The notes beneath the pieces are model-generated. The model searched no databases. It worked only from the letters and a program-made list of their open reading frames with translations, and had not been told where the DNA came from. A stretch of DNA of 64,000 nt from Saprospiraceae bacterium (GTDB lineage: Bacteria; Bacteroidota; Bacteroidia; Chitinophagales; Saprospiraceae): positions 43,906 through 107,905 of the forward strand of contig JAHDBI010000002.1 of the NCBI GenBank assembly GCA_020630475.1, given 5' to 3'. Below, in pieces: positions 37,070 through 62,005 of the stretch (the first letter of the stretch is position 1; the number at the start of each line of letters is the position of its first letter). A program made the position numbers and the translations under genes.

Positions 37070-37105
37070 TAAAAAAAAGAGAGAGGCTCGTGTGAACCTC
37101 TCTCT
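37070..37105 (-). terminator. Terminator after the first giant gene
   Basis: Read on the minus strand, AGAGAGAGG, a 10-base loop and CCTCTCTCT form a 9-bp stem followed by eight T. It lies 37 bases beyond the stop of the 3733-codon gene and separates it from purA. Confidence 0.75.
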
Positions 37106-37141: not shown

Positions 37142-40100
37142 TTATTTCAAAATTTCAAGTTTCTTGATGAATGTTGCTTTACCAACTTTCACTCTTACGA
37201 TATAGATACCTTTATCCATATTGCTAACATCTGCAGAAACAGTTGTAGTGTTACTAGTTGTAGTTGTAAAGAACAATTGATCACTTACTAATCTTCCTCT
37301 AACATCATAAACAGAAGCACTAACTGTTTCTCCAATTCCAGCTTCAACGGTCAAGTTAACTTGATCAATCGCTGGGTTAGGATAGATATTGATATCAATA
37401 TCAGTAGCACGTTCTACTCTGATTGCGATTTCATTAGATAGGGTAGCCGTACCATCGAAGTCTAATTGCTTCAATCTGTAGTAGTAGATACCATTCTTCT
37501 GAATGTCAGCATCATCAAAGTTGTAAGTAGAGGTAGTGTTTGTTGTACCATTACCTTCTTGAGTACCGATTTCAACAAAGTTATCATTATCACCGTAAGA
37601 TCTTTCAATAACGAACATGTCGTTATTTAATTCACTTTCTGTGATCCATGTTAATTCGTTAACATCTCTTACTTCATTCCAAACTCCGTAGAAGTCAGTT
37701 AAAGTAACAGGAACTACAGAAGAACGAAGTCCTAAATCCACTGAATCATTAGTTTGACCTGAAGTCAGTGTATATGTACCTGTAGTAGCTAAAGTTCCTA
37801 ATGCATTTGGAACACCGTCACTATCTGTAAGATCAGAACCGAAGTTAGGAGTTACAGGAGTGAAACCACCTGGAAGTACAAACTCCACTTGGTAATCACC
37901 AGGAGCGAGATTTGTAAATCTGTATTCACCAGTAGGATCTGTAGTAGTCGTCACTGGTAGACCAGTAGTCATATCAATAACAGGGTTTCCATTTCCATCT
38001 AATAGATTCACTGTAATTCCGTCAGCTGGTACATCAGTTCCATCTTGAGAATCAGGATTCGTTCCATCATCAAACCATACAAAGTTTCCTAATTGAGCAG
38101 GCTCAAAGAAACCAGCATCAATACGTGGCTCGTCTTGACCAGCAGTTAGCGTGAACAAGGCAGTTGTATTAGGACCGTTTGATCCGTCTAAATCACTTTC
38201 ATCCGCTTCGTTACCAACAGCATTTGGAGTTGTAGGCATTAAGCTTGATCCAGCAGGAGTAGTAAATTCTACATAATAACTACCTGGCGCTAGATCAGTA
38301 AATTCGTACCATCCATCGTTACCAGGATTGTTAGGATCAGTCATTGTTACAACTGGAGTTCCTACTTGGTTTCCAGCAGCATCATATAATGTTACTGTAA
38401 TTCCATTAATACCAGGCTCACCAGGATCTTGAACACCGTCACCATCTTGATCTTCCCATACAAAGTTTCCTAAGCTAGCTGTTGGGTAAACACCGAAGTC
38501 TACAGATAAGTTAGAATTGTCACTTGCATCTCCGTCATTAGTTGGCTCACTACCTGAAGCTAATGTAACAGCTTGAGATAAGATACCAGATGCACCAGCA
38601 TCATAACCATTATCATCACCATTCACATCGTCATCAGAGTCAGGAGCAGTTCCTAATACATCATTTCCGTCAGATGTTACCCAATCTTCAAGAGGAGCAC
38701 CAGGACCGAAGTTTGATGCGTCAATTTGAACTACATAGTCGCCAGGAGCTAATCCTGTAAATGAGTAGTTACCATTTCCATCAGTTGAAGTAGTCATTCC
38801 TGTAGGAGTATCTGGTAGTCCATCACCAGTTGTATCTTCCCAAAGTGTCAATGTAACATTTGCTACACCAGATTCAGTAGGATCTTTAATACCGTCGTTG
38901 TTAGAATCTTCCCAAACAAGGTCACCTAATGATAACTCTTCGAAGAAACCAGCATCAATCTCATCGTCAAATTCTCCAGGAGAAAGTACAACAGTGTGAG
39001 ATAATCCAGTAGTAGGATCAGCATCACTGTCATCTCCAGGATCAGTTCCATCAGTATTACCACCTGTAGCATCTTGTACTGTAGGTTGGTGATTTGCAGG
39101 AGTAACAAACTCAACAATATAGTTTCCAGGAATCAATCCAGTAAACTCATAGTATCCGTCATTACCACCATTTGTCATTGTTGTTGTCGTTGCATCTGGA
39201 GTTCCAGGAGTATCAGGAATTCCATCGTTGTTTGCATCTTCATATAGATTAACAGTTACACCGTTAATACCATCCTCATTTGGATCTTGAATACCGTCAT
39301 TGTCTTCGTCCATCCATACAAAGTCACCAAGACCAGCAGGAACAACCTCAACAAAATCGTTATCATCGTCATTCTCAAATGGGTTCACTGTAACAAGAAT
39401 CTCATCATCTACAACGCCATCATTATCATTAGGATCGTCCGGTGTAGTATCATCATCTGATACAGACGTCAAACCAGTTGGTTGTTGCTCACTTAGGATA
39501 TAGTTACCTGGAGGAACATTTGTAAACTGATAGAATCCATTCATATCCGTTGTAGCAGTTAATCCGGTAGGAGTGCCATCTGGGTATAGTAATTCGATTA
39601 CAACTCCTGGGATTGGTGTATCACCAGTTCCGTTACCATCAGTATCTTCATCTACGTGACCTGAGATGTTACCCCAGTTTGCAGGGAAACCACCTACAAA
39701 TACTTCTTCATCATCACCATCATCCTCATCATCAGGATCCTGAGAACCATCATTATCTATCGGTCCTATATCACCATCACCATCAGTGTCAGCACCATTT
39801 CCTGGTGTAGAATCTACGTCAGTTTGATCATGATCGGTCACTTCTGCAACATTATTAAGGTTTGGATCCAATGGCCAAGCCACAGCAATATCAAATGTCA
39901 ATGTAATCGTCTGTCCATTATTGATAGACAATCCTATCCAGTCAATAGTGTTACCAGTTAAGACACCACCGTTAGAAATGTTAGCTACAGTTGATAAATC
40001 ATAACCAGAAGGAATTACATCCTGAATATCTACACCTGTAGCATTAGCAGGTCCTCTGTTTGTTACGTCGATAGAGAATTGGAATGGTATACCAACAGTC

Positions 40101-43100
40101 ACAAGTGACGCATTAGTAGATTTCACTAGTTCAAGATCGATCATTTCAGGCTGGATACCAAAGTCAACACAACAAGTACCAGTTGGAGTACAGTCTGTCA
40201 TACCATTTGGATTAGCATCTGAATCATCAGCATCACTACATCCAGCAGCATCCTTTCCACTTAAGAACTCATCAGCAGCTAGACCTGAGATTCCGATTAC
40301 ATACTCTTTAGAAGGATCTAAACAGAATTCATAGGCACCATCATCACCAGTTACAGTTGTAGCAGGTTGACCAGTATTAACGTCAGTAGCAACAGTTGTA
40401 GTTGGAACACCATTCACACATTCAAATGCAGTGATGGTATATCCAGCTAATGGCTGCTCATTGTTATCTTGACAATCTGACATATTCGAATCTTCGAAAA
40501 CAACACCATCGATCGTCTCACAAGGAGGTACGATACCAAAGTCAACACAACAAGTACCTGTAGGAGTACAGTCCGTTTGACCGTTCGGGTTAGCGTCAGA
40601 ATCATCCGTTTCAGAACATCCAGCAACATCTTTATCAGATAAAGATTCTCCAGCAGCAAGTCCAGTTATTCCGATTACATACTCTTTAGAAGGATCTAAA
40701 CAGAATTCGTAAGCACCATCGTCACCAGTAGTTTCAACAGCAGGTTGACCTGTGTTCACATCTGTAGCAACAGTATTCGTAGGAACACCATTTACACATT
40801 CAAAAGCGGTAATAGTATAACCAGCAGCAGGGGATTCGCCGTTATCTTGACATCCACTATCATTTGTATCCATGAAGACAACACCATCGATCGTCTCACA
40901 AGGAGGTACGATACCGAAGTCAACACAACAAGTGTTCGTAGGAGTACAGTCCGTTTGACCATTTGGATTAGCATCAGAATCATCAGATTCGTTACATCCA
41001 GCAACATCTTTATCAGATAGAGATTCTCCAGCAGCTAAACCAGTTATAGCCAATACATATTCTTTAGTTGGGTCTAAACAGAATTCATAAGCACCATCGT
41101 CACTAGTTGTCTCAACCGCAGGTTGACCTGTGTTAACATCAGTAGCAACAGTTCCAGTAGGAACACCATTTATACATTCAAATGCAGTAATAGTATATCC
41201 TGATAATGGAGATTCACCATTATCTTGACATCCACTGTCATTTGTATCAGCGAAAACAACACCATCAATCGTCTCACAAGGAGGCACGATACCGAAGTCA
41301 ACACAACAAGTACCTGTAGGAGTACAATCAGTTTGTCCGTTTGGATTAGCGTCAGAATCATCAGATTCTCCACAACCAGCAGCATCTTTATCAGCTAAAG
41401 ACTCACCAGCAGCTAATCCAGTGATACCCATAACATATTCTTTAGAAGGATCTAAACAGAATTCGTAAGCACCATCGTTACCTACCGTTTCGGTAGCAGG
41501 CTGTCCAGTGTTAGCATCTGTTGCGATAGTTCCAGTAGGAACACCATTTACACATTCAAAAGCTGTTACAGTATATCCAGCAGCAGGAGTTTCATTGTTA
41601 TCCTGACATCCATTATCATTTGTGTCATAGAATACGACACCATCGATTGTTTCACATGTTGGCACGAAACCAAAATCAACAGTCATGTTACCGTTATTCT
41701 CATTGGCGTCGTCAAGGTTCGCACCAGGACCAGTTTCAACATTGTTTCCAACTTCTTGACCAGGTTGAAGATCAATAGGAGGAGAAATAGTTGAACCACC
41801 TGGTGTGTTCTGAACACCATTATCATCGTTATCCTGGTTGTTATCCATATTGTCAGTAGGCGTACTACTGTTAGGGTATGCAGGGTCAGGATTAGGAATT
41901 CTAACTTGGTAGATACCAGGCATTAACATATCAAAGAAGTAATTACCGTTAGCATCCGTATTCATGAAGTCAACTACGTTACCATTCGCGTCAAGCAACT
42001 CAACTAATACCCCTGGGATACCAGCATCAGCTCCATTAAGCATACCGTCATCATTATTATCAACGAAAACAGTAGAACCAATACTTACTAATTCAGGCAC
42101 GATACCGAAGTCAACACAACACGTACCTGTAGGAGTACAATCAGTTTGTCCGTTTGGATTAGCGTCAGAATCATCAGATTCTCCACAACCAGCGGCATCT
42201 TTATCAGATAATGATTGGTCAGCGGTTAATCCACTGATACCCATAACATATTCTTTAGAAGGATCTAAGCAAAATTCATAAGCACCATCATTACCAACAG
42301 TTTCAATAGCAGGCTGTCCAGTGTTTGCATCTGTAGCAATTGTACCCGTAGGGATACCATTTACACATTCAAAAGCAGTAATGGTTACACCAGAAACAGG
42401 AGTCTCATTATTATCTTGACAACCATTGTCATTAGTATCCATAAATACAACACCATCGATCGTTTCACATGTTGGTACGAAACCAAAATCAACCGTCATG
42501 TTACCGTTATTCTCATTGGCGTCGTCAAGGTTTGCACCAGGACCAGTTTCAACGTTGTTTCCAACTTCTTGACCAGGTTGAAGATCAATAGGAGGAGAAA
42601 TTGTTGAACCACCAGGGGTATTCTGAACACCATTATCATCGTTATCCTGGTTATTATCCATATTATCAGTAGGCGTACTACTGTTAGGGTATGCAGGGTC
42701 AGGATTAGGAATTCTAACTTGGTAGATACCAGGCATTAACATATCAAAGAAGTAATTACCGTTAGCATCCGTATTCATGAAGTCAACAACATTACCATTC
42801 GCGTCAAGCAACTCAACCAATACCCCTGGGATACCAGCGTCAGCTCCATTCAACATACCGTCATCATTATTATCAACGAAAACAGTAGAACCAATACTTA
42901 CTAACTCAGGTACGATACCAAAGTCAACATCAGTAGTATTTGTAGGAGTACAATCAGTCTGACCGTTTGGATTAGAATCTGAATCATCAGCCTCTCCACA
43001 AGCAGCAACATCTTTGTCAGATAAAGTTTCGTTTGCAGTTAATCCAGAGATAGATAATACGTATTCTTTAGACGGATCTAAACAGAAATCGTAAGCACCA

Positions 43101-46100
43101 TCATTTCCTACTGTTTCAATAGCAGGAGTTCCATCGTCTTGTATAGCCACTGTACCTGTTGGTACGCCGTTGATACATTCAAAAGCTGTAATTGTTTTTC
43201 CAGCAATAGGAGCTTCACCTGCATCTTGACAACCATTATCATCAGCATCCATAAATACGATACCTGAAATAGTTTCACATGGAGGGATAATACCAAAGTC
43301 AACACAACAAGTACCTGTTGGAGTACAGTCCGTTTGACCGTTAGGATTAGCATCAGAATCATCAGATTCACTACATCCTGCAACATCTTTATCAGATAAA
43401 GACTCATCTACACCTAATCCAGAGATTCCAATAACGTATTCTTTAGTCGGATCTAAACAGAATTCATAAGCACCGTCATTTCCAGTAACTGTTGTTGCGG
43501 GCTGACCAGTATTTACATCTGTCGCGATAGTACCAGTCGGAACACCATTTACACATTCAAATGCAGTAATAGTATAACCTGGTAAAGTGATTTCATTATT
43601 GTCTTGACATCCAGAGTCATTTAAGTCTCCAAATACAACACCATCAATCGTTTCACAATTTGGAATAATACCAAAGTCAATATCGTCTGGTCCAGTAGGA
43701 GTACATGAAGTCATACCATTTGGATCAGCATCACTATCCGTTGTGTTTCCACAAGTGTTAGAATCTTGTATCGTTAAAATTTCATCTGCAGCTAAACCAG
43801 AAATCTGAATAGCATACTCTTTAGAAGGATCTAAACAGAATTCGTAAGCACCTGCATTGTTTGTAGTTTCAATCGCAGGAGTTCCGTCAGATTGAGTAGC
43901 TACAGTTCCAGTTGGCGCTCCGTTACCATCACATTCAAAAGCAGTAATCGTATATCCTTGTAGATTTACTTCACCTGCTTCCTGACATCCATCAGCATCA
44001 GTGTCAAACCAAACTACACCTGAGATTGTCTCACATGGAGGAACAATACCAAAATCGATATCGTCTGGTCCTGTTGGCGTACAATCTGTTTTACCGTTTG
44101 GATTAGAATCACTATCCTCAGTGTCACCACAATTGTTTGAATCTTTTCCAGTTAAACTTTCATCAGCAGCTAAACCAGAGATACCGATTGAATAAGTTTC
44201 AGAAGGGTTCAAACAGAATTCGTAAGCACCATCATTTCCAGTTACTTCCGTTGCAGGAGTACCGTCAGACTGTGTTGCTATGTTATTTGTTGGATTACCA
44301 TTTGCATCACATAAGAATGCGGTAATCGTATAATTTGCTAAAGTAACTTCATTCAAATCCTGGCATCCATCACTATTATTGTCTTGCCAAACAATACCTG
44401 AAATTGTTTCACAAGCTGGAATAAATCCAAAGTCAATAGTCATGTCTCCATTTGGATCGTTACCATCATCTTGTTGACCACCTGTGTCATTATTTTCATT
44501 TCCAGCAGCCAATGTAGGCTCATTGTTAGGAGTTAAAGTAATTACAGGAGAATGTACTTTACCACCCGAAGTGGCTTGATCACCATTATCATCTCCATCT
44601 TGCTGGTTATCAGCAAAGTCAGTTGGAGTAGAACTGTCTGGGAAATTAGCATCTGGCGTAGGGATAACTACTTGGTATTGACCTGGGTCAAGACCACTTA
44701 CTATCCAATCACCGTTTCCATCAGTAGTATCACTACCTTCTAATACGTCATCACCACCGCCCATTTCGAAAATTCCGTTAGGGCCAGCGCTATAAACTTG
44801 TACTAATACACCAGAGATTCCACCTTCACCCGGATCCTGAGTACCACTATCGTCCGGATCTTCAAAAACTGTAGAACCAATAGATAATAAGCATTCATCA
44901 ATAGTAACCACTACTTCGTCAGTTGTAGTACAACCGTTATTGGTTACTGTTAATGTATATGTAATTGAAGTTCCCATTGCAGCATTTGCCGGAATGCAAA
45001 CTTCAGGGTTAGGAATATCAGTTGCAGATAAGTTTGTTGCAGGAGACCAAGAAATTACTCCACCATCTGGTGCAACAAAATCCATTGTACCACCTATCTC
45101 AGCACAAGTTGCTGGACAAATCGTTTTGTTAGGACCAGCTTCAGCCGATACAGGGCCACCGATTTGAACTTCAAATTCTGCAGAAGCAGGACATCCTAAT
45201 TCATTTGAAGTAGCATTTAAGGTAACGGTAATCGTTTGACCTTGGAATGCAGGACCCCAAGAAACTGTTTCCGTAGGATCATTAGAATCGCCATCAGCAG
45301 TTGTACCACCGTTGAAATTCCATACATAATTATATGTTGGGTCAGGGTTAGTTACAGAGAATACACCTGCTTCATCAGCACACAATAAATTTGGAATTAT
45401 AGTTTGTAAAACCGGTGGGTTTTCAACAACTACACATATTTCATCTTCTCCTTCGCAGCCTAATTGGTCTGTAGCTTTTACAGTATAACAAGTAGTTACA
45501 TTAGGAGTAACATTCTTTGTAGGTCCAGAAGAAGGCAGTCCGCCTTGGTCATCTGTCCATAAAAATACAATATCACCTGTTGCATTTTGAACATTTGCAG
45601 TTAGTGTTAATTGAGGATCACCATTACAAAATGGTACATCGTTTCCAGTTGAAACTACCAAAGAACAACCAAAGAATCCAAAGTCCAAAGAATGATTATG
45701 TTGCCCTGGTGCACCAGTACTAAACGCAATCATTGGTTGAGTTGGGATCGGATTCGTTACACTACTAGTAGCGTCATTATCTCTTTCGTCATCCGCAAAA
45801 GAGTTACCGCCTACATCAGTCATAGTAACAACAAAATCACTACCATTATATGTTAGACCATTTGGGCCATACGGATCAACAACAGCCAAGTAATAGCTTG
45901 TCACTGGTGTTAGAACAGTTGCACCATTTTGATCTAAATAGTCGTCACTATTAAAATAGTAATATCCATCTGCGTCCGTTACCGCCACAGCATCTATATT
46001 AGTCATCGTCATCGGGTCCCAAACTTGAACAGGGTTTCCAGCAGCGTCATAAAGACCGATAGTAATACCCGCCATCGGAGTTTCACCTGGATCTTGAACA

Positions 46101-48343: not shown

Positions 48344-48375
48344 TATTTAAAGTTCTGTTAAACAAAAAATACAAT

Positions 48376-48392
48376 GTATTGATTATCAATAC
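48376..48392. promoter_or_regulatory. 17-bp perfect palindrome, candidate operator
   Basis: GTATTGAT-T-ATCAATAC has eight-base arms around one central base. It lies 33-49 bases upstream of the minus-strand giant gene start, where a dimeric regulator could act. The arms are AT-rich and there is no T-run, so it is unlikely to be a terminator. Confidence 0.45.
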
Positions 48393-48613
48393 GTTTTGGG
48401 GTTATTTTTTTTGCTTCAATCCGTTATTTCAGTCATCGACGAGGGGTTAAAACGCCGAATTTGATATAAATGACCGTATACTGGACACTTGAACGAACCT
48501 ATCCCCCCTATGCCAACCTGATTTTTAATGACTTTTTGGCCAAAATTTTATATTCAGGGCATGTATTTTTATTTTTTATATAACAAAAAATTATAATATG
48601 TAAGAATAATCCA

Positions 48614-48621
48614 TATCTTTG
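48614..48621 (+). promoter_or_regulatory. -7 element for the second giant gene
   Basis: TATCTTTG is an exact TAnnTTTG match. It overlaps an upstream in-frame TTG (48619), which argues for ATG 48688 as the real start. No clear -33 TTTG was found. Confidence 0.5.
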
Positions 48622-48687
48622 CTCTATCTCATACCGATTTGGTCTAGCAATAGGCCGCTTTACGATTTAATAAGAAAACTACACACA

Positions 48688-51600
48688 ATGTTCTCACTAA
48701 GTATGAGTGGGGCGAAACGATTTATGTTTTGTCTCTTTATCAGTATGGTTTCCGTTACGACTTTAGAAGCTCAACCAACCGCTATTGGTGACTTCTTTTG
48801 GTACGATACAAACAATGACGGAATACAGGACCCCGGCGAACCTCAGTTAAATGGTGTTGTTGTTCAATTATGGACTCAAGATGCATTTGGTAATTTCGTT
48901 CAAGTGGGTATTACGACAACCGCCGCAGATGGAACGTATTGTTTCAATGACGCGAATTCGGTTTTTCCATTAATTCCTGGTCAAACTTATTGGATTTCAA
49001 CACCCAATGTAATTAATGAACCCGGTACTGCAAATCCAACAGCTCCCACACTTCTCGATACAGGTGGTGGTTTGCTTCAGGACTTTTTAGATAATGACGC
49101 TTCTCTTTCCACCGTGGCAGGTGCTCCATTTAATGGACTTCCAGCTATAGAATTTGTGCCTACTGCTGGTACGGGAGAGGATAAAACCCTAGATTTCGGG
49201 TTTTATACATTATGTGATAATCTAGAGGTAGATATATTGCCTACGGGTAATATACAAGCCTGTGAGGGAGAGACAGTTACATTGGTGGCACAAACAGAAG
49301 GAACTAATCCTATCGCGGGTTATGACTGGAGTAATGGTGCCAGTACTGTAACCAATACTTTAGATGTCGTTGTTTCAACATCTGGTTTCTTTTCTGTCAC
49401 TGTAACAGATGATATTGGTTGTACGAATACATCTCAAATATTTGTGGAAGTCGAACGATGTCCGGGCGATTTATCGCTCGTTAAAACCACTAGACAGGAT
49501 ACTGCCTATGTACCTGGTGATTTAATATTATTTGAAATTGTCGTTTGTAACGAAGGATTAAGTCCTTACGACAGATTTGAAATATTTGATTATTTGCCAG
49601 TAGGTTATATTCCAGCAGCATCGCCTAATCCAGGTGATCCAACTTGGATGGTTTTTGCTTCGAATGCCGTTCAAAATTCACTTAGTCTTGAAATTAGTAG
49701 AACTAATGGATTAATACCAGCTGAAGGTTTTCTGCCTGGTGATTGCATGACTCTTCCGCTATACGCGACTTTAGATCCTTGTGCGACTACTGATAATTTG
49801 ACGAACTGCGCCGTTATCAACGAACAAACAGATCTTTATGGATTTATTGATGATGCCGATAGTAATCCAGGTCCGGATGTAGATGCAGAAGATGACTCTG
49901 ATTGTATAGCCGCTCCTGTTTTCGATTTGGCCTTAGCCAAAAAGACTACTGATACTGCACCATTTTTATGCGGAGATGAAGTGACTTTCGAAATATGTGT
50001 GACCAACCAAGGTAGTGTACCAGCAAGTGATGTAACAATCATTGACTACTTACCGGCTGGAATGGAATTTTTAGCAGGTCAAAATTCAAACTGGACATTC
50101 AATTCTGGAAATAGTACTGCTTTATACACTATACCTGGACTAATTCAGCCCGGTGAAACGAAAACCTTTCCTTTGAACATCGGATTAACTCCTGGAAATG
50201 GAGGTGGTTCGGATTGGACTAATATTGCTGAGATTTTTGCTGCAGAGGATACCTTCGGAATAGATAGATCTTTATTTGATATAGATAGTCCTTACGATGA
50301 TGATCCTACGAATGACGTAGGTGGTACACCAGGTTCTGATGAAGATGATCATATAGATGACAATCGATATGATAAAGATGGAGATGAAATTTTTGATGAA
50401 GATGATCATGATCCTGAAATGATTCCTTATTTCGATCTAGCCCTTAGAAAGGAGGTGATTACACCTCCACCATATACTTATCAGTCAGATGTAACTTTCG
50501 AAATAACTATTTGCAACCAAGGTAACGTTACCGCAAATAATATTGCAGTGAATGATTATATCCCAGCTGGTTTTTCTTTTGATCCAGGTTCAAATAGTGG
50601 GATTTGGGGAGGAGGAAATCCTTTAACTTCAGTGACTATTGGTCAGTTACTTCCAGAGGAATGTGTTCCAATTCAAATCACATTGGATATTATGAAAACC
50701 GATGGTGGTTTAAAGGATTGGACCAATTACGCAGAGATAGTTTCCGCGACGGATGCAATGGGTGTGTCAATGACGGATGCTGATAGTGACTTGGGTAGTA
50801 ATACTCCGGAAGAAAATGAAGTTTGTCAGGGTGATCCAGACGATGATAATATGTTAGGTGGGGGAGCTGCAAAAGGAGAAGATGAAGATGATCATGATCC
50901 TGCAGGTATTGCAGTTAACGATTTAGCTCTAAGAAAAACAATATTGACTGCTGGTCCGTATTCATTAGGTCAAACAGTTAAATATCAAATCGAAGTGTGT
51001 AATCAAGGGAACACACACGTATCAACCGTTGGAATTGTAGATTACATTCCTGACGGATTAGAATATAAAATTTCGAATTTCCCAACATGGTTTACTGATC
51101 CATCAGGTGAATTGGCTGCACATTCTATGAAAGATGTTGCTCCAGGTGATTGTAAGTTCGTCACCATCGATTTGGAAATCACAAAATCATTAGCTGGTGC
51201 AGGTGCTTGGGACAATGAGGCAGAGATCTACTACATGGAAGATGCTGAATGGAATAATTTGGACGATATTGATAGTAATCCAGATACCGATCCGTTAAAC
51301 GATTTTGGTGGCGAACCATGGACAGCGGATGATGACAATATCGATGGCTGTGGTCCTACTGTGATGGAGGATGAAGACGATCATGATCCCGCAAGAATAG
51401 AATTATTTGATTTAGCGCTAACCAAGGAGCTGGTAACTCCAGCCCCATATTTCTATGGAAAGGTAGTAGAGTTCAAAATCACAGTGTTTAATCAAGGTAG
51501 TGAGGATGCAACATTAGTGAATGTGGCAGATTATATTCCTACGGGTTATGCTTATGTACCTGGAAATAATACGGCTTGGACTGGTGCTGCACCTACTGTG

Positions 51601-54600
51601 AATCACGAGTTTCCAGGTACAATTCTAGCTGGTGAGTCTGCTGAAGTATCTATATTTTTAGAAATTATAAAAGACCCATGTGGAACTAAGAGTTGGACTA
51701 ATTATGCAGAAATAATCTCCGCTGCTAACGGAGCAGGTGAGGATAGAACAAATCTTGATATCGATAGTACACCTGGAAGTAATGCTTCTCATGAAACCGA
51801 TGTAGATTATGGTGATGAAGATGACAATAATATAGCCGGTTGTGGCTTGCTAGCAGGAGAAGATGAAGATGATCACGATCCAGCTGGTTTAGATGTTACG
51901 GATTTAGCCTTATCTAAAACAACTGTTGAATCTGGTCCTTTTGCCATAGGCGATTTGGTGACTTTTCAAATAAATGTTACAAATCAAGGTAATGTTCCAG
52001 TAGCAAAAACTGGAATCGTAGACTATATCCCAGTAGGATTTTCAAATGTAATTGGCAATTCACCAACTTGGTCATTTGATCCCACGGCAGGGGTGGCGAC
52101 AACGTCCCTTAAGGATTTATTGCCTTGCGAAACAAGGACTATTGATTTAGTTTTAAAAGTCGAAAAATCTGACGTTGGAGGCTATGAGCTTTGGTGTAAT
52201 AATGCAGAAATTTATTACATGGAAGATAGCGATTGGGTTGATTTATTAGATTTTGATAGTGCACCAGATTTAATTCTTGGTAATGATTTATTTACCAATG
52301 ATGAAATAGATGATTGTGACATAGATGAGGATGATCATGATGAAGAATGTATTGAAATTTTTGATCTTGCTCTCGTTAAAGAAGTAGTCACACCTGGCCC
52401 ATATTTTTATGGACAGAACGTTCAATTTAGAATCAGAGTTTACAACCAAGGTAACACTGATGCGACATTAGTGAATATTGCAGATTATATTCCTTCTGGT
52501 TTCGCCTTTGATTCGGCTGTAAATGCAGGTTGGACAGGTGCTGCTCCAACTGTCAACTTTGAAATTCCTGTTACGATTGCTCCAGGAACATTCTTTGATG
52601 CATCTATCTTTTTAGAAGTTGTACAAAGTTGTGGTGAGGATAGTTGGACAAACTATGCTGAAATAGTGAGTGCGGCAAATGGACTTGGAGAGGATAGAAC
52701 AGCCAACGATGTTGACAGTACTCCTGCTTCAAATGCAGGTCATGAAAGGGCTGTAACATGCGGAGCAGATTATGATAATGTTTATACAGGTTGTGGCCTT
52801 TCGGCGAATGAAGATGAGGACGATCATGATCCAGCTTGTATCGAAATAAATGATTTAGCATTAAGAAAAACGACTACAGATGTAGGACCTTTCGTTCCGG
52901 GTGATATTGTAACATACCAGATTGAGGTAATTAATCAAGGGAACACCACAATTCATAGTGTTGGAGTAATAGATTACATTCCTACTGGTTTAACAAACGT
53001 TCTTGGGAACGCTCCGTTATGGAACTATGACGCTGCTGCAAATCTCTCAACTGCGACTATTTCAAATATCGCTCCATGCGAGATAAGAACATTAGAAATT
53101 CAACTTTTAGTTGAAAAATCTAACGTTGGTGGGGCTACTTTCTGGTGTAATAATGCTGAGATATATTACATGCAAGACTCGAATTGGAATGATGTAGATG
53201 ATATTGATAGTACACCTGATTTTGTCAATGGAAATGATATTACCATGGATAATGAAGTTGACGATAATGATATCGATCAAGACGATTTTGATGTAGAATG
53301 TATTGAGGTATTTGATCTCGCTTTAACAAAAGAAGTGATTACACCTGGACCTTATTTCTATGGACAAATGGTTCAGTTTGGAATTAGAATTTATAACCAA
53401 GGAAACGAACCGGCTACTTTAGTAAACATAACTGATTATATACCAGCTGGTTACGCATTTGATGCAGGCAGTAATCCAGCATGGTCTGGAAGTGCTCCTA
53501 TGGTGACGTATGAAGTACCTGTTCCTATCGCTCCTGGAGGATTTTTCGATGCTTCGATTTTCCTTGAAGTAGTTCAGGGTTGCGGTGAGAAAAATTGGAC
53601 GAATTACGCTGAAATCATCTCAGCAGCAAATGCAGCTGGAGTCGATCGTACTAATAACGACACAGATAGCACACCTGGAAGTAATGCAGGTCACGAAACT
53701 GCAGTAGACTATGGTGATCCATTTGATAATGTAATTGATGGATGTGGCCCGGGAGAAGGAGAAGATGAAGATGATCACGATCCTGCAGGAATTGATGTCA
53801 ATGATTTAGCGTTGAGAAAAACAACGACAGATGTTGGACCGTTCGCTATTGGTGATATTGTAACTTATCAAATTGAAGTAATTAATCAAGGTAATACCAC
53901 AATTCATAGTGTTGGGGTTATCGATTATATTCCAACTGGATTTACTAATGTATTGGGTAATGCACCATTATGGAATTACGATCCAGCATCCAATGTATCG
54001 ACAACAACATTGTCAAACATTGCTCCATGTGAAACTAGAACACTAGAAATTCAACTTTTACTTGAAAAATCAAGCACTGGTGGATCAGAATTCTGGTGTA
54101 ATGAAGCGGAGATATACTTCATGCAAGACTCAGATTGGAATGATGTAGATGATATTGATAGCACTCCTGATTTTGTAAATGGTAACGATGTATTTACAGA
54201 TAACGAAGTGATTGATAATACCATTGATCAGGATGATCATGACGAGGAATGTGTGGAAATCGTGGATTTAGCATTGGTGAAAACCGTTGTAACATCTGCT
54301 CCATATTTCTACGGTCAAAATGTTCAATTTAATATAAGAGTTTATAATCAAGGAAATGGAGATGCGACATTAGTAAATATTGCAGATTATGTCCCTGCAG
54401 GATATGGATTTGCTCCATCATTCAACCCAGGTTGGACTGGTGCTCCACCTTTATTGAATTATGAAGTACCGATTGCTATTGCGCCGGGCGGATTCTTTGA
54501 TGTCACATTATTCTTGACATTACAAAAGAGTGATGGTTGCAATAAAGACTGGATCAACTATGCAGAAATTGTTTCGCATGCAAATGCCGCCGGTGAGGAT

Positions 54601-57600
54601 CGAACAGGATGGGATATAGATAGTACTCCTGGAAGCAACTCCACTTACGAAAACGAAGTAGATGAATATCATATATTCAATGATGTGTTTGATGGATGTG
54701 GAGAAGCGGAAGGAGAAGATGAAGATGATCATGATCCAGCAGGTGTTGAAGTCATTGACGTCGCACTTAGAAAGACTACTGATGAAATTGGTCCATTTAA
54801 GTTAGGTGATATTGTTACCTATAAAATAGATGTAATTAACCAAGGTGCGGTAACAGTAGCACAAATTGGAATTGCGGATTACATTCCAAATGGATTGGAA
54901 TATGTTGCTACCAATGGTCCAGTTTGGACTTCAGGAGCATTAGGGGATATTGCAACGACCACAGTAACGAATCTGGAGGTTTGTGAGACCAGAACTGTAG
55001 AAATTGATTTAAGAGTTACTAAATCACTTCTCGCTGATAATACAACTGCTTGGGATAATCATGCTGAGGTATATTTCATGTCAGATGCAAGTTTTGTCCC
55101 AGTTCTTGATATTGATAGTTATCCGGATGACATATTTGGAAATGACTCCGGTGGAGTAGTAGAGACTGCAGATGATGATAATGTAGACGGTTGTGGGCCA
55201 AATGCTCCTCCAGGAGAAGATGATGATGAAGATGATCATGATCCTGAAAGAATACCAATTTTTGATTTGGCCTTGACCAAGGAAGTGGTAACACCAGGTC
55301 CTTATGAATATTGTCAGGTTGTAGAATTTGAAATTACAGTTTATAATCAAGGAAATGAACCAGCAACCCTTGTTCATGTAGCTGATTATATCGCTCCAGG
55401 ATATTATTTCGATCCTGCACTTAATCCAGGATGGACAGGTCCAGGTACTTCTCAGTTGTATGAAATACCAGGAACTATTATGCCTGGAACATCGGTTTCT
55501 ATTCCGATCTTCTTAGAGCTTATACCAGGATGTGGTGCTGATGATTGGGTGAATTATGCGGAGATTTTCTTAGCAGCTGATTCTAACTCGCTTATTGCTT
55601 GTGATATTGATTCTTCTCCAGGAAGTAATACTGGATTTGAAACAAGTGTTAAACCGGGAGATCCGGATGACAATAATATCAGCGGATGTGGACCATTAGC
55701 TCTTGAAGATGAAGATGATCACGATCCAGCAGGAATAACTGTTTACGATGTTGCATTGTTGAAAACGGTGGATACCTTCGGACCTTATGACTGGGGTGAT
55801 ACGGTTACCTACTCAATTACTGTCTGTAATCAAGGTAGTTTCCCTGTTCGAAATATCGATATCATTGATTATATCCCAGTTGGATTAGAATTTGTTTCAG
55901 GTAACTTCCCAACTTGGGATTACAACGAATTTGACGAAGAAGCGGTAACACGTGTTATGGGGCCATTAGCGCCATGTGATTGTGAAACTGTAAAAATAGA
56001 TCTTGAAGTTCTTAAGTTGAAAAATGATGAAGATGCATGGGATAACAGAGCTGAAATCTTTGGATTCAAAGATGAAAACTTCATCGTTGTTGATGATATC
56101 GATAGTACTCCAGATGCTATTGTCGGAAACGATGTTGGTGGAACTCCTTGGACTCCTGAAGATGATCATATTGATGACGACGGGACAGATTGTAATGACG
56201 ATGGTATCCTTGATGAGGACGATGAAGATGTCGCACGTATCGAAATTGTTGACTTAGCATTACGTAAAGTATTAGAAACGCCTCCGGTACATTTCTATGG
56301 ACAAGTGGTGGATTTCAGTGTTTGGTTATTTAATCAAGGAAATGAGGAAGCCAATAACATTGTCGTTACGGACTACTTACCACCAGGTTACGCATTTGAT
56401 CCAGCAATCAACCCAGGTTGGTCTGTGATTGGTGCAGGACCAAACTTAGAGTACACGCATACAGGACCACTACCTGCCGTTGATAGTGTTCAGATTCCAT
56501 TGAAATTGGAAATAATCTGTACAAATGGTGGACGTAAGCATTGGACTAATTATGCTGAGATTACTTCTCATCAGGGTAGAGCGAGTGTAGGATATCCTTT
56601 CCGAATGACTTGGGAAATGGATAGTACTCCAGGATCTGATAGTTCATGGGAAAGAAACGTTTGTTTACCTCCATACAATACACCTACGCAAGAAGCATTC
56701 CCATGGGATGATGAGATTTGTGGATGTGGACCATTATATAATGAGGATGAAGATGATCACGATCCGGCGGGAATCGAAATATTCGATCTTGCATTGAGAA
56801 AGACTACATTAGATACACCACCATTTAGGTACTGTGAAAACATGACTTATGATATGACAGTATTTAATCAAGGTAGTTTAAGTGCATTCGATGTTGAAGT
56901 GACAGATTATATCCCTTGTGGTTTTGAATTTGATCAGGCAGATAATCCAGATTGGACTTATGATCCGGTATTTAGAAAAGCGAAGAGAACTATCCCTGGA
57001 GAATTAGAACCAGGTGATAATACTCAAGTAAGCCTTGTGCTTAAAATTGTACCGTGTATTGACGAAAGTCTAATTGCTTGGACAAACTGCGCAGAAGTAA
57101 GTGATGCAGATACTGAACCACTATATATCGCAGATGACTTTGATAGTCATTTAGACGAGGTGAATAATGAAACCACTTGGGTTGACAATGCTATTAAAGA
57201 TCCTAATGATGAAGATGATCACGATTGTGAAAAGATCGACATTCTAGATTTAGCCTTGAGAAAAACAACTCCAGATTGTGGACCTTTTGCAATAGGGGAT
57301 ACGGTTGAGTTTGAAGTAACAATATTCAATCAAGGTAATGTGCCTACTGGTAATATCTTCGTTATTGATTCGATCAATACAGGATTTATCTGGTTACCTG
57401 CACTTAATCCAGATTGGGTAGGATTTGGTAGCTATGCGAGTTGGGTAATTAACACTCCACTGGCTCCAATGGATAGTATCAAGACAAGTATTTTCTTTGA
57501 AATTACTATTGACGACGATCCATATAATACGGATTGGTGGAATAGAGCAGAAATAGGATTTGCTAATGATAGTTCATTTGGAATTACCATTGACGCCGAT

Positions 57601-59769
57601 AGTAATCCGGATGCCATCTTTACAAACGACAACTATGTTGAGCCGAGTAGCCCAACCCTTGGATTTATTGATCCAAATGATGATGTCATTGATGAAAGTT
57701 GGCCAACATGCGAACCAGGAGATGATGAAGATGATAGTGATCCAGCTAAAGTACTTGTAGTCGGAGGTCTTGGAGATTATGTCTGGAAAGATTTAGATGG
57801 TGACGGTATCCAAGAAGTGGGCGAACCAGGAATTCCAAATGTAGTAGTTTACTTACTCGATTGTGATGGAAACGTGGTAGACGTCCAAGTAACTGACGAT
57901 GACGGATTCTACTTCTTTGATAATATTATTCAAGGATTCTATCAATTACAGTTTGATATTTCTGATCAGCCAGCTGGATGTGCATTCACGCTACAAGATC
58001 AAGGAAATGATGACACTATCGATAGTGATGTGGACCTTTCTGGTAACATTCCTTGTATGGAAGTCCTTGCTGGGGTATACGACAGTACATTCGATGCTGG
58101 TGTATTAATCCTTGCTGAAAAAGGAGATTTTGTATGGGAAGATATGGATGGTGACGGAATTCAAGATCCTGACGAACCAGGATTAGAGAATGTTATCGTT
58201 CACCTTTACGCAGCGGATGGAACGCTTGTGAAGAGTACATTTACAGATGCCAATGGTTATTACTTGTTTGACTTAATATATCCAGGTGATTATTACGTAG
58301 AATTTGAAATACCTACGGACTACTTCGTTACTTGGCCTAACTCAGGATCTAATGATAATGTGGATAGTGATATCATAGATCTTGAAAATGGACGAGCAAG
58401 AATTCCATTATTTACATTGAATTCTGGAGATGTTAAATTGAATTGTGATGCTGGTTTCTACAGATGTGTTCCGATTGGAGAGTTAGTATGGTATGATACG
58501 AATCAAAATGATGTTTGGGATTCTGAAGAAAACGGTATCAATGGACTATGGGTATTCTTATACAAATTTGAAAATGGCACTTGGACTAAGTATGATTCTA
58601 CGGAAACAGGACATAAGCCAGGTACACCCTCTGATGATGGATACTTCAAGTTCTGTGCTAAACCAGGTTCTTATTACGTAGAGATTAAGTCTCCACCATA
58701 TGGACTTGTTCCGGCAAGACCGCACGTTGGTTCTAATGAAAATGCGGACAGTGATTTGGACAATACCTTTGGTATGGGTACGACAACCTTCTTCACGGTA
58801 AGAAGTGGTGATGTGAAATGCGACATAGGTGCTGGTTATTATCCTCAAGCTCAGATTGGAGATAGAGTTTGGAGTGATATCAATGCCAACGGTATGCAAG
58901 AAAATAACGAACCTCCATTTGCTGGAATAGTCATTAAAGCATACAACATGTCTGGTGATATGGTGGTACAGGATACCACTGATGCAAATGGTAGATTCAT
59001 GATTACTGGATTACAGAAAGAAGATTATTACTTGAGAATAATGACTCCACCTAACTATGGATTGACCTATGCAAATACGGTGAATGATCTTATCGACAGT
59101 GATTTTGATCATAGCAACGGATATAACACGTCACCTACGTATAGCATGTCTCCAGGAGACTCTATAACAAATGTAGATGCTGGTTTAATGTTCGGAGTAT
59201 TACCAATCGAATTGTTGAGTTTCGAAGGAACAAACAGATCTTCTCATAACTACTTAGTATGGGAGACAACTAACGAAGTGAATAACAGTCACTTTGAATT
59301 AGAACGTTCTTTCGATAATCAAGATAATTTCGAAATGATTGCCAAGCATGAAGCAGTAGCGGTTTCAGCTGAAGTAAATGTTTACGATCAAGAAGATCAT
59401 GACATTTCTGAAAATGGCATTTACTACTACAGATTGAAGCAAGTTGATCTGGATGGTGCATTTACCTATAGCCACATTGTAGCCATACGAGTGAATAAGG
59501 CTAATGTGACCAATGTGAACACTTATCCAAACCCTGCTATTGACGATGTAGTCATAGAATTCACAATTGAAAAAGATGCTCCTGTAACCATGGATATTTG
59601 GGATGCAGCTGGACAATTAGTGATGACAAAAGCGATTTCTGAAAACATGGAAAGCGGAAATCACGAACGAATGATTAACATTAGCCACTTAACAAGTGGT
59701 GTGTACACCATGAAATTTAATATTGATGGTGACATTTTCGAAAAGCAATTAATTGTAGTTCGAAGATGA
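48688..59769 (+). CDS. Giant T9SS-exported surface protein with seventeen DUF11 repeats
   Basis: The product is about 3693 aa from ATG 48688 (ATG 48703 also possible). A signal peptide ends near LEAQP. One SdrD-like domain (about 31-176) and one Ig-like domain (178-258) precede seventeen DUF11 domains (about 260-3021), each starting D(L/V)ALxK, with xNQGN and ADYIPxG in the middle and an acidic EDEDDHDPA linker at the end. Four SdrD domains (3024-3500), a fibronectin-like linker with LERSFDNQDNF and YYYRLKQVDLDG, and a T9SS type A tail (from about 3611, TYPNPAIDDV) complete it. The layout predicts a long Ca-binding fibre on the cell surface. The C-terminal 200 residues are homologous to those of the divergent giant. 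Confidence 0.85.
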   Translation: MFSLSMSGAKRFMFCLFISMVSVTTLEAQPTAIGDFFWYDTNNDGIQDPGEPQLNGVVVQLWTQDAFGNFVQVGITTTAADGTYCFNDANSVFPLIPGQTYWISTPNVINEPGTANPTAPTLLDTGGGLLQDFLDNDASLSTVAGAPFNGLPAIEFVPTAGTGEDKTLDFGFYTLCDNLEVDILPTGNIQACEGETVTLVAQTEGTNPIAGYDWSNGASTVTNTLDVVVSTSGFFSVTVTDDIGCTNTSQIFVEVERCPGDLSLVKTTRQDTAYVPGDLILFEIVVCNEGLSPYDRFEIFDYLPVGYIPAASPNPGDPTWMVFASNAVQNSLSLEISRTNGLIPAEGFLPGDCMTLPLYATLDPCATTDNLTNCAVINEQTDLYGFIDDADSNPGPDVDAEDDSDCIAAPVFDLALAKKTTDTAPFLCGDEVTFEICVTNQGSVPASDVTIIDYLPAGMEFLAGQNSNWTFNSGNSTALYTIPGLIQPGETKTFPLNIGLTPGNGGGSDWTNIAEIFAAEDTFGIDRSLFDIDSPYDDDPTNDVGGTPGSDEDDHIDDNRYDKDGDEIFDEDDHDPEMIPYFDLALRKEVITPPPYTYQSDVTFEITICNQGNVTANNIAVNDYIPAGFSFDPGSNSGIWGGGNPLTSVTIGQLLPEECVPIQITLDIMKTDGGLKDWTNYAEIVSATDAMGVSMTDADSDLGSNTPEENEVCQGDPDDDNMLGGGAAKGEDEDDHDPAGIAVNDLALRKTILTAGPYSLGQTVKYQIEVCNQGNTHVSTVGIVDYIPDGLEYKISNFPTWFTDPSGELAAHSMKDVAPGDCKFVTIDLEITKSLAGAGAWDNEAEIYYMEDAEWNNLDDIDSNPDTDPLNDFGGEPWTADDDNIDGCGPTVMEDEDDHDPARIELFDLALTKELVTPAPYFYGKVVEFKITVFNQGSEDATLVNVADYIPTGYAYVPGNNTAWTGAAPTVNHEFPGTILAGESAEVSIFLEIIKDPCGTKSWTNYAEIISAANGAGEDRTNLDIDSTPGSNASHETDVDYGDEDDNNIAGCGLLAGEDEDDHDPAGLDVTDLALSKTTVESGPFAIGDLVTFQINVTNQGNVPVAKTGIVDYIPVGFSNVIGNSPTWSFDPTAGVATTSLKDLLPCETRTIDLVLKVEKSDVGGYELWCNNAEIYYMEDSDWVDLLDFDSAPDLILGNDLFTNDEIDDCDIDEDDHDEECIEIFDLALVKEVVTPGPYFYGQNVQFRIRVYNQGNTDATLVNIADYIPSGFAFDSAVNAGWTGAAPTVNFEIPVTIAPGTFFDASIFLEVVQSCGEDSWTNYAEIVSAANGLGEDRTANDVDSTPASNAGHERAVTCGADYDNVYTGCGLSANEDEDDHDPACIEINDLALRKTTTDVGPFVPGDIVTYQIEVINQGNTTIHSVGVIDYIPTGLTNVLGNAPLWNYDAAANLSTATISNIAPCEIRTLEIQLLVEKSNVGGATFWCNNAEIYYMQDSNWNDVDDIDSTPDFVNGNDITMDNEVDDNDIDQDDFDVECIEVFDLALTKEVITPGPYFYGQMVQFGIRIYNQGNEPATLVNITDYIPAGYAFDAGSNPAWSGSAPMVTYEVPVPIAPGGFFDASIFLEVVQGCGEKNWTNYAEIISAANAAGVDRTNNDTDSTPGSNAGHETAVDYGDPFDNVIDGCGPGEGEDEDDHDPAGIDVNDLALRKTTTDVGPFAIGDIVTYQIEVINQGNTTIHSVGVIDYIPTGFTNVLGNAPLWNYDPASNVSTTTLSNIAPCETRTLEIQLLLEKSSTGGSEFWCNEAEIYFMQDSDWNDVDDIDSTPDFVNGNDVFTDNEVIDNTIDQDDHDEECVEIVDLALVKTVVTSAPYFYGQNVQFNIRVYNQGNGDATLVNIADYVPAGYGFAPSFNPGWTGAPPLLNYEVPIAIAPGGFFDVTLFLTLQKSDGCNKDWINYAEIVSHANAAGEDRTGWDIDSTPGSNSTYENEVDEYHIFNDVFDGCGEAEGEDEDDHDPAGVEVIDVALRKTTDEIGPFKLGDIVTYKIDVINQGAVTVAQIGIADYIPNGLEYVATNGPVWTSGALGDIATTTVTNLEVCETRTVEIDLRVTKSLLADNTTAWDNHAEVYFMSDASFVPVLDIDSYPDDIFGNDSGGVVETADDDNVDGCGPNAPPGEDDDEDDHDPERIPIFDLALTKEVVTPGPYEYCQVVEFEITVYNQGNEPATLVHVADYIAPGYYFDPALNPGWTGPGTSQLYEIPGTIMPGTSVSIPIFLELIPGCGADDWVNYAEIFLAADSNSLIACDIDSSPGSNTGFETSVKPGDPDDNNISGCGPLALEDEDDHDPAGITVYDVALLKTVDTFGPYDWGDTVTYSITVCNQGSFPVRNIDIIDYIPVGLEFVSGNFPTWDYNEFDEEAVTRVMGPLAPCDCETVKIDLEVLKLKNDEDAWDNRAEIFGFKDENFIVVDDIDSTPDAIVGNDVGGTPWTPEDDHIDDDGTDCNDDGILDEDDEDVARIEIVDLALRKVLETPPVHFYGQVVDFSVWLFNQGNEEANNIVVTDYLPPGYAFDPAINPGWSVIGAGPNLEYTHTGPLPAVDSVQIPLKLEIICTNGGRKHWTNYAEITSHQGRASVGYPFRMTWEMDSTPGSDSSWERNVCLPPYNTPTQEAFPWDDEICGCGPLYNEDEDDHDPAGIEIFDLALRKTTLDTPPFRYCENMTYDMTVFNQGSLSAFDVEVTDYIPCGFEFDQADNPDWTYDPVFRKAKRTIPGELEPGDNTQVSLVLKIVPCIDESLIAWTNCAEVSDADTEPLYIADDFDSHLDEVNNETTWVDNAIKDPNDEDDHDCEKIDILDLALRKTTPDCGPFAIGDTVEFEVTIFNQGNVPTGNIFVIDSINTGFIWLPALNPDWVGFGSYASWVINTPLAPMDSIKTSIFFEITIDDDPYNTDWWNRAEIGFANDSSFGITIDADSNPDAIFTNDNYVEPSSPTLGFIDPNDDVIDESWPTCEPGDDEDDSDPAKVLVVGGLGDYVWKDLDGDGIQEVGEPGIPNVVVYLLDCDGNVVDVQVTDDDGFYFFDNIIQGFYQLQFDISDQPAGCAFTLQDQGNDDTIDSDVDLSGNIPCMEVLAGVYDSTFDAGVLILAEKGDFVWEDMDGDGIQDPDEPGLENVIVHLYAADGTLVKSTFTDANGYYLFDLIYPGDYYVEFEIPTDYFVTWPNSGSNDNVDSDIIDLENGRARIPLFTLNSGDVKLNCDAGFYRCVPIGELVWYDTNQNDVWDSEENGINGLWVFLYKFENGTWTKYDSTETGHKPGTPSDDGYFKFCAKPGSYYVEIKSPPYGLVPARPHVGSNENADSDLDNTFGMGTTTFFTVRSGDVKCDIGAGYYPQAQIGDRVWSDINANGMQENNEPPFAGIVIKAYNMSGDMVVQDTTDANGRFMITGLQKEDYYLRIMTPPNYGLTYANTVNDLIDSDFDHSNGYNTSPTYSMSPGDSITNVDAGLMFGVLPIELLSFEGTNRSSHNYLVWETTNEVNNSHFELERSFDNQDNFEMIAKHEAVAVSAEVNVYDQEDHDISENGIYYYRLKQVDLDGAFTYSHIVAIRVNKANVTNVNTYPNPAIDDVVIEFTIEKDAPVTMDIWDAAGQLVMTKAISENMESGNHERMINISHLTSGVYTMKFNIDGDIFEKQLIVVRR
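51901..54756 (+). repeat. A/B two-domain DUF11 super-repeat, period about 951 bp
   Basis: DUF11 domains 6-11 alternate between a 462-bp A form (TTTDVGPFxxGDIVTYQIEV) and a B form of about 489 bp (PGPYFYGQxVQFxIRVYNQGN). Units begin at 51901, 52852 and 53803, so the repeat unit is the pair. A-to-B joints read DxDDHDEEC; B-to-A joints read DEDDHDPA. Confidence 0.75.
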
Positions 59770-59812: not shown

Positions 59813-59844
59813 AGGCTGCCTGTTGATTCAGGCAGCCTTTTTTT
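59813..59844 (+). terminator. Terminator after the second giant gene
   Basis: AGGCTGCCTG and CAGGCAGCCT form a 10-bp stem with loop TTGATT, followed by six T. It lies 44 bases past the stop. Confidence 0.85.
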
Positions 59845-59926
59845 GTCGTCTATGAGGATTTTAAACATAACTTTACAGTCAAGACTTAGACATTTAGTAC
59901 CTTATAGTCAAATCAAACATGAAACG

Positions 59927-62005
59927 ATGAAAAGATATCTACTTAGCGCTTGTTTACTTTGTATTTTCGCTTTCGCGAATGGACAAAATTTATTAACTAC
60001 AGAACCAGAAAACCGAAATGCCGTTCTCGAGGAATACACGGGCATGAAATGTACGTTCTGTCCAGACGGTCACAGAATTGCACAGTCTATATACGAGAAA
60101 GATCCTAATAATGTGATCTTATTAAATATTCACACAGATGCCTACGGAACACCAACTCCAGGTACCAATCAGCCTGATTTCAGAACACCTTACGGAAATG
60201 AATTTGCTTCTGAAATGGGAGTTTCTGGTTACCCAAGTGGTACGCTGAATAGGATGAATTTACTAGGTCAAACATCTCCTGCATTAAATAGAGGTTCTTG
60301 GGAATCAGCATCTATTGAAGTGCGGAGCTTAGCTTCAAGAGTCAATATGGGTTTAGCTTCAAGTTTTGAGGAAGCAACAAGAGAATTGACTGTTCAAGTG
60401 GAATTGTATTATACAACAAGTAGTCTTTTACCTACAAATTTCATTAACGTGGCTTTCGCCGAAAATGGATATTTAGGATATCAGATAGACGGAGGAGTCG
60501 TAGTCAACGATTACGAACACAATCATATACTTAGAGAGATGTTGACGGGCCAATGGGGTGATGAAGTAACAACGACAACAGCAGGAACTTCGGTTTCCAG
60601 AACGTATACTTATATCGTCCCAGAGCAATATGATATTGATAAGTGTGAAGTAGTGGCGAGTGTTGCTGAATCAAGAAGAAACATTCATACTGGTCACAAG
60701 GTAAAGGCTAATGGCGGTTCAACAACCATAGTAGGACAATTGACTTCAACTGGGGGAGAGTATTTTTCAGGGGCACCTGGAGAAATGACAGAAGTAAGTT
60801 TTTCACTGAAAAATGAGTTGCCTACTGAAGAGTCTTATGTGATCAATTTAGATGGCACTGCTCCCAATTCATGGTCTTCGAATTTAATTGTGAATGGTTC
60901 AGCCATGCCTATCGGTAGTGCAATCACTGTCGGAGCAGGGGAAACACAAGATTTTACCATTGCGGTTACCCCTGACGATGCAGTGGGCATTGCTAGCTTA
61001 GAGGTAGAAGTGGTTTCAGAAACTTATGGAAATAATGCACCAACCTTGACTTACGGAATCAACTTAATGAGCGGTGTAAAAGACTTGGTAGTCTCTAATG
61101 ATCAAGAATTAGGAAATGCCCCATACTACGAAACAGGATTGGCTTTAGCCGGAAATGACAAATTTGCTGGGACGACAAAAGATGCTTTTAATGGATTTGG
61201 AGAAGCAGGTGCACTGGACAATGTTTACAATGTCTATTATAATGTTGGTTGGACTTTTCCTGGTTTAAATAATACAACCATCGCGACCTTATCCAACTTT
61301 ATGGATAATGGAGGAAATGTGATGTTTGCAGGTCAAGATATTGTTTGGGATGCTTTTAACAATAACAATACTGCAGAAGTACAGAATTTTGTCAATCAAT
61401 ATATGCATTCCAATTATGTAGATGACGGTGACGGTGGAAATACTCCCGTTACAGCGATTACAAGTGACCCTGTTTTTGGTGCTTGCGGATCTTCTGCAAT
61501 ATTTGATTTTTATGGTGGAGGTGCAGTTTATCCTGAGGAGGTATCACCCAATAATGGAGGAATCCCAATATTCACGTACAACAATGACTCCAATGCTATT
61601 GGTGGTATGAGAGCAGAAACAGATAATTATAAAATGGTTTATATCGGTTTTAGTGTAGCACAATTAAGCAATGTTTCTGTTGGAAATCAGATCATACAAA
61701 TCACACACGATTGGTTTTATGAAGGAATTACTTCTGCCAAAGACTTGACGCTTGATTTGACGAATGCCGTTTGGCCAAATCCTTCAAGAGACATCCTTAA
61801 TGTTGATCTAGGTAAAGAGCTGATATCGAATCCAAATGTAAGATTGTTAGATTTAAAAGGATCAGCTGTTCTTCAGCAAAGGCTTCCCAATGATACTCAA
61901 CAGGCACAATTAAATGTTGCTGATTTAATTCCTGGTATGTATATCCTAGAGGTCAATGATGGTTTACAAATCATGGGTCGAACTAAAGTCGTAGTCCAAA
62001 GATAG
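59927..62005 (+). CDS. Omp28-type secreted protein with thioredoxin-like domain and T9SS tail
   Basis: The 692-aa product starts at ATG 59927. An earlier in-frame ATG (59843) overlaps the preceding terminator. A signal peptide ends FAFANGQ (residue 20). The Omp28-like domain shows LEEYTGMKCTFCPDG with a CxxC (Cys42-Cys45), then ILLNIHTDAYGTP and GVSGYPSGTLNR, a thioredoxin-fold pattern. A beta-sandwich (about 265-380) and a further domain precede the sorting tail VWPNPSRDILNVDL...LIPGMYILEV. CxxC proteins of this kind may act on disulfides at the surface, a possible partner for the cysteine-rich giant (inference). Confidence 0.82.
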   Translation: MKRYLLSACLLCIFAFANGQNLLTTEPENRNAVLEEYTGMKCTFCPDGHRIAQSIYEKDPNNVILLNIHTDAYGTPTPGTNQPDFRTPYGNEFASEMGVSGYPSGTLNRMNLLGQTSPALNRGSWESASIEVRSLASRVNMGLASSFEEATRELTVQVELYYTTSSLLPTNFINVAFAENGYLGYQIDGGVVVNDYEHNHILREMLTGQWGDEVTTTTAGTSVSRTYTYIVPEQYDIDKCEVVASVAESRRNIHTGHKVKANGGSTTIVGQLTSTGGEYFSGAPGEMTEVSFSLKNELPTEESYVINLDGTAPNSWSSNLIVNGSAMPIGSAITVGAGETQDFTIAVTPDDAVGIASLEVEVVSETYGNNAPTLTYGINLMSGVKDLVVSNDQELGNAPYYETGLALAGNDKFAGTTKDAFNGFGEAGALDNVYNVYYNVGWTFPGLNNTTIATLSNFMDNGGNVMFAGQDIVWDAFNNNNTAEVQNFVNQYMHSNYVDDGDGGNTPVTAITSDPVFGACGSSAIFDFYGGGAVYPEEVSPNNGGIPIFTYNNDSNAIGGMRAETDNYKMVYIGFSVAQLSNVSVGNQIIQITHDWFYEGITSAKDLTLDLTNAVWPNPSRDILNVDLGKELISNPNVRLLDLKGSAVLQQRLPNDTQQAQLNVADLIPGMYILEVNDGLQIMGRTKVVVQR

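Follow-up and report, generated by a model that had tools for sequence, protein, structure and literature searches.

Two divergent giant genes in a Saprospiraceae genome probably encode separate type IX-exported fibrillar adhesins with different stalks

The analysed stretch of DNA of Saprospiraceae bacterium (64,000 nucleotides, hereafter the window) harbours two giant genes, A and B, placed head to head, which raises the question whether they act as a pair or are neighbours by chance. A sequence-only reading had described two such genes of about 3,700 codons each, filling about 35% of the window, and had proposed a co-regulated pair of surface fibres on the grounds of equal size, a shared control region and a shared export tail. 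The dimensions were confirmed: A and B occupy 22,353 of the 64,000 bases (34.9%), and both ORFs are open throughout, A on the reverse strand (37142..48343, 3733 aa) and B on the forward strand (48619..59769, 3716 aa counted from TTG). The start of B was corrected. TTG 48619 sits within a match to TAnnTTTG, the consensus of the Bacteroidota -7 box (TATCTTTG, 48614..48621, forward strand), and the signal peptide begins at the first in-frame ATG, 48688; therefore the start was re-set to this ATG, which gives a gene of about 3693 aa (48688..59769, forward strand) and a spacer of 344 bp (48344..48687) rather than 275 bp.

A recognisable promoter box is present on B's side of the spacer only, and the sigma-70 scan of the spacer revealed nothing exceeding chance. 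About 35 bp upstream of the start of A lies the perfect palindrome ATTGATTATCAAT (48378..48390), found as a single exact copy within the window, which is a possible operator and the lone hint of one in the spacer. For the idea of a shared control region, the palindrome is a hint in favour, and the one-sided box speaks against it. A strong intrinsic terminator with a 12-bp stem and a T tract lies after A and before purA (37078..37105, reverse strand), so that A is probably transcribed separately from purA. The search of the window against Rfam gave no match.

Gene A is predicted to encode a fibrillar adhesin (from ORF and Pfam analysis), in which Pfam detected 19 SdrD_B stretches, two DUF11 domains and a Por_Secre_tail. 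Its features, all on the reverse strand, begin with a Sec signal peptide (residues 1-22, 48278..48343, judged by eye), followed by one SdrD_B domain, a head of 456 aa, more SdrD_B and Ig-like parts, and then by repeats. These include, by repeat analysis and Pfam, four cysteine-rich 126-aa SdrD_B repeats (residues 1311-1813, 42905..44413), the first copy of a 145-aa SdrD_B spacer (1814-1958, 42470..42904), one cysteine-rich repeat (1959-2084, 42092..42469), the second copy of the spacer (2085-2229, 41657..42091) and four further cysteine-rich repeats with eight cysteines apiece (2230-2733, 40145..41656). The protein ends with one DUF11 domain (2736-2850, 39794..40138), a C-terminal SdrD_B run (about 2890-3540, 37724..39676), both assigned with Pfam, and a T9SS type A sorting tail (Por_Secre_tail, 3653-3730, 37154..37387). 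The two 145-aa spacers are identical in protein and differ at 16 bases, all of them synonymous, which argues for strong constraint on the protein.

The majority of the 92 cysteines of A lie within the 126-aa repeats, that is, in nine of its SdrD_B domains, which possess six to eight each, at positions 1, 17, 35, 67, 95 and 111 and, in six of the nine, also at 117 and 118. In the SdrD_B type of isopeptide bond the lysine lies near the domain start (PMC12617251). The cysteine repeats of A have no lysine in the first strand, most of them having lysine only at about 72 and 90, so that they are not predicted to form a bond of this type; disulfides probably take its place. The repeat profile matched SdrD structures (10ps, E 2e-10, and also 4jdz), and AF2, run on two repeats with an alignment of the copies from the window, gave an all-beta two-domain model with a pLDDT of 80.5. 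Strict D-x-[DN]-x-[DN]-G-x-x-[DN] motifs, predicted to bind calcium, are present 24 times in A and three times in B. SdrD_B domains with many calcium-site motifs and cysteines make up the stalk of A, which is predicted to be stiffened by disulfides and calcium and would carry the propeller-like head near its tip.

This head (about 456 aa, residues 280-735, 46139..47506, reverse strand) corresponds to no Pfam family, nor was a known adhesive Pfam domain found in it. Relatives of the head were detected in 43 out of 120 genomes from this family and order, and the alignment of 20 head regions showed 19 invariant columns. Among 19 proteins examined, the head starts at residue 132-474 in fifteen and at 646-1059 in four. 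In fibrillar adhesins the binding part sits N-terminally, and annotation gaps in this region are a source of new adhesive domains (PMC9210967); the head is the probable binding part of A. Its alignment profile matched the archaeal surface-layer beta-propeller 1L0Q over about one blade (E 1.4e-5), the match covering only about 60 of 472 positions and the likeness being limited to that stretch. AF2 on the single head sequence, run without an alignment, gave a pLDDT of 33. From the profile match we infer a propeller fold. The relative G111 (C78) possesses a frame of 14254 codons bearing the A-type head.

Gene B, likewise a predicted fibrillar adhesin, starts with a Sec signal peptide (48688..48774, judged by eye; all features of B are on the forward strand). 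Its tip has just one SdrD_B domain and one Ig/PKD-like region, ahead of an array of 17 DUF11/DUF7507 (CLIPPER) domains with a Lys-Asp-Asn triad (49468..57738), a C-terminal SdrD_B run (57766..59148) and a T9SS type A sorting tail (59524..59757), the latter two assigned with Pfam. The Pfam search detected 17 DUF11 domains (E 7e-174), five SdrD_B domains and a Por_Secre_tail. The DUF11 domains of the middle of the array alternate between two subtypes with a spacing of 163 and 154 aa, and frequent alternation of DUF11 and DUF7507 has been described (PMC12617251). The earlier statements that both proteins carry SdrD-like and DUF11 modules and that their central repeats differ agree with these results, as both domains were found in A and in B, the 126-aa cysteine-rich repeats of A contrasting with the DUF11 core of B.

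The Lys, Asp and Asn of the triad are invariant in all 17 DUF11 repeats of B, with a distance from Lys to Asp that is always 35 and from Lys to Asn that is 91-95 in sixteen repeats and 107 in the first. In the crystal structure of DUF11 an Asp-assisted Lys-Asn isopeptide bond shows spacings of 33 and 91, and those of the related DUF7933 are 35 and 95 (PMC12617251). The spacing in B falls in the CnaA-type offset range of the same study. The phmmer comparison of one B repeat with 9IFR gave a weak match (E 0.025) with the lysine register off by one residue, so the triad was assigned from its position within the family and from the spacing. An intramolecular Lys-Asn isopeptide bond is predicted for each DUF11/CLIPPER domain, and B would thus be a rod locked by such bonds.

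Both A and B possess a signal peptide (by eye) and a type A C-terminal domain, and the Por_Secre_tail and TIGR04183 models exceed the cut-off in both. The genome also encodes components of the type IX machinery, including SprA_N, split over two contigs, and a PorU-like Peptidase_C25, in line with the earlier description of the two proteins as giant T9SS surface fibres. Proteins of type A are attached covalently to A-LPS (PMC9143113), and A and B are probably fixed to the cell surface via this tail. Each would leave the cytoplasm by Sec, after which the type A tail would direct it to the type IX system for passage across the outer membrane; as tail and machinery suggest, the PorU sortase probably attaches them to the surface. 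The long repeats would form the stalk, which may exceed 100 nm judging from the number of domains. The downstream neighbour of B (59843-62005) codes for a member of the Omp28 family that itself bears a type IX sorting tail; this gene probably starts not at the TTG but at a more internal ATG.

The C-terminal stretches of A and B, comprising the SdrD_B runs and the tails, align at 33% over 770 residues, which supports the homology claimed for the C-termini. The shared tail of about 200 residues has 40 matches genome-wide, and the best non-self match of the A tail is C122 at 40%, B reaching 36%. The tree built from 19 tails places B together with C122 and a giant of 8892 codons (98/95) and A together with its orthologue in the congener G001; the A group and the B group join at weaker support (82/84). 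The genome has about ten frames that contain these domains and measure 2000-8900 codons, a count that includes two frames with sub-threshold DUF11 matches only. Neither the tail nor the equal size, both advanced as signs of a pair, therefore sets A and B apart: the former is spread over the genome and joins B to giants elsewhere, and the latter is unremarkable among so many giants. The 8892-codon giant is a single frame (G000:C98) of the same genome and contains many DUF11 domains.

Two congeners, G001 (87% complete) and G002 (79% complete), were compared; both are fragmented, so that B or the A-B pair may have escaped detection in them. G001 has an orthologue of A with 71% identity; its frame is truncated by the contig end and stops immediately ahead of purA, which is also the arrangement in the window. 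A DUF11 run of the B type was searched for in G001 and not found (best E 8.6e-4), nor do the right-hand neighbours of B, the Omp28 gene and a DUF2911-like gene, have close counterparts there; B is likely absent from G001. In G002, the contig with the Omp28, transporter, mazG-like and pnp genes, located to the right of B in the window, begins with a gene end; its final 42 residues correspond to the terminal part of the type B sorting domain (E 0.011, for a short piece), so that B does not lie directly before Omp28 there. Both G002 contigs break off at the expected site of A and B, as is usual when repeats defeat the assembly. The upstream neighbour was visible in 18 of the 19 fetched regions with an A-type head, and none of these 18 relatives has a giant divergent partner; divergent upstream neighbours were found in two of them, with 521 aa and 202 aa. 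As far as these incomplete congeners tell, A thus occurs independently of B in relatives, and conservation of the pair, by which the earlier proposal was to be checked, was not found.

The tails, the synteny in G001 and G002 and the lack of a giant partner in 18 relatives lead us to regard A and B, with good though not full confidence, as two separate fibrillar adhesins that are divergent neighbours by chance. A functional divergent pair with a shared control region, in which, for example, one protein binds and the other supports, is unlikely. Such a pair would fit the head-to-head order, the 344-bp spacer, the near-equal length, the common tail type and the palindrome 35 bp upstream of A, and the break of both G002 contigs falls at its expected site. 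Nevertheless, the tail is found genome-wide and that of B is not sister to that of A, no B-like run was found in G001, a protein with a type B tail takes the slot of B in G002, the relatives show no giant partner, and the promoter box is on B's side only; hence the proposed co-regulation finds no support. An old local duplication followed by divergence of the middle would account for the 770 aligned residues, but the two tails resemble those of giants elsewhere at least as closely as each other, and A and B differ in family in both their cores and their N-terminal regions. This origin was rejected, since the tail tree shows no sister grouping of A and B, and we consider it very improbable.

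Compatible with two separate adhesins is the view, possible but rather doubtful, that A, B or both belong to the length-variable "periscope" proteins, in which the number of repeats determines how far the fibre reaches. After the last spacer, the orthologue of A in G001 has three cysteine repeats as against four in A, and the spacer of A is duplicated exactly at the protein level. However, a single orthologue was compared, fragmented assemblies can collapse repeats, and the 16 synonymous differences indicate that the spacer duplication is not very recent.

Similar to the fibrillar adhesins and related proteins described previously (PMC9210967), A and B are very long, with an N-terminal candidate binding region, an annotation gap near the tip, repeated domains of kinds listed there as stalk domains (DUF11 and SdrD_B) and a C-terminal surface anchor. 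They differ in that the anchor is a type IX sorting tail instead of a Gram-positive sortase motif, and in that the head of A is absent from the catalogued adhesive domains. The repeats of B resemble CLIPPER (DUF11) domains (PMC12617251, 9IFR) in their DUF7507-like copies and in the matching spacing of Lys, Asp and Asn, but B has seventeen of them on a Bacteroidota type IX substrate, and its bond is predicted. Similarly, the repeats of A match SdrD_B and align with the B domains of Staphylococcus SdrD (4JDZ, 10PS), whereas the copies in A hold six to eight conserved cysteines and SdrD anchors to a Gram-positive wall. The literature on Saprospiraceae and on giant type IX adhesins yielded no paper on A or B.

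What looks like a striking pair would be two unexceptional adhesins out of a large repertoire. The stalks of A and B, of predicted disulfide type and isopeptide type in neighbouring genes, offer a natural comparison of two ways of fibre hardening. A and B are otherwise of known type, and the head family is the only part beyond what is described. Tentatively, and with slightly less than even confidence, we propose that the region of about 456 aa is an uncharacterised propeller-type adhesive head, Saprospirales-wide on giant type IX fibres, with exchangeable stalks locked by disulfides (cysteine-rich SdrD_B) or isopeptide bonds (CLIPPER). This family without a Pfam model can be tested for binding and is the part worth following.

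The same genome contains a contig of 5.8 kb (G000:C73) that repeats the Omp28, transporter and 837-aa genes found to the right of B. It shows 90% DNA identity with G002 over 3.1 kb, and probably entered the genome bin as contamination from a sibling population. Giant surface-protein genes in tandem on one strand are present at G000:C68 and in the congener at G002:C200, the C-terminal tail being identical (PARGIYYIELSNSETTVRNKMILIN) and a giant common to both (MLFHNVRVV...) following downstream; relative to G002, an extra giant of 4830 codons lies between them in G000:C68. As a candidate for a conserved cluster, these tandem giants are preferable to the A-B pair.
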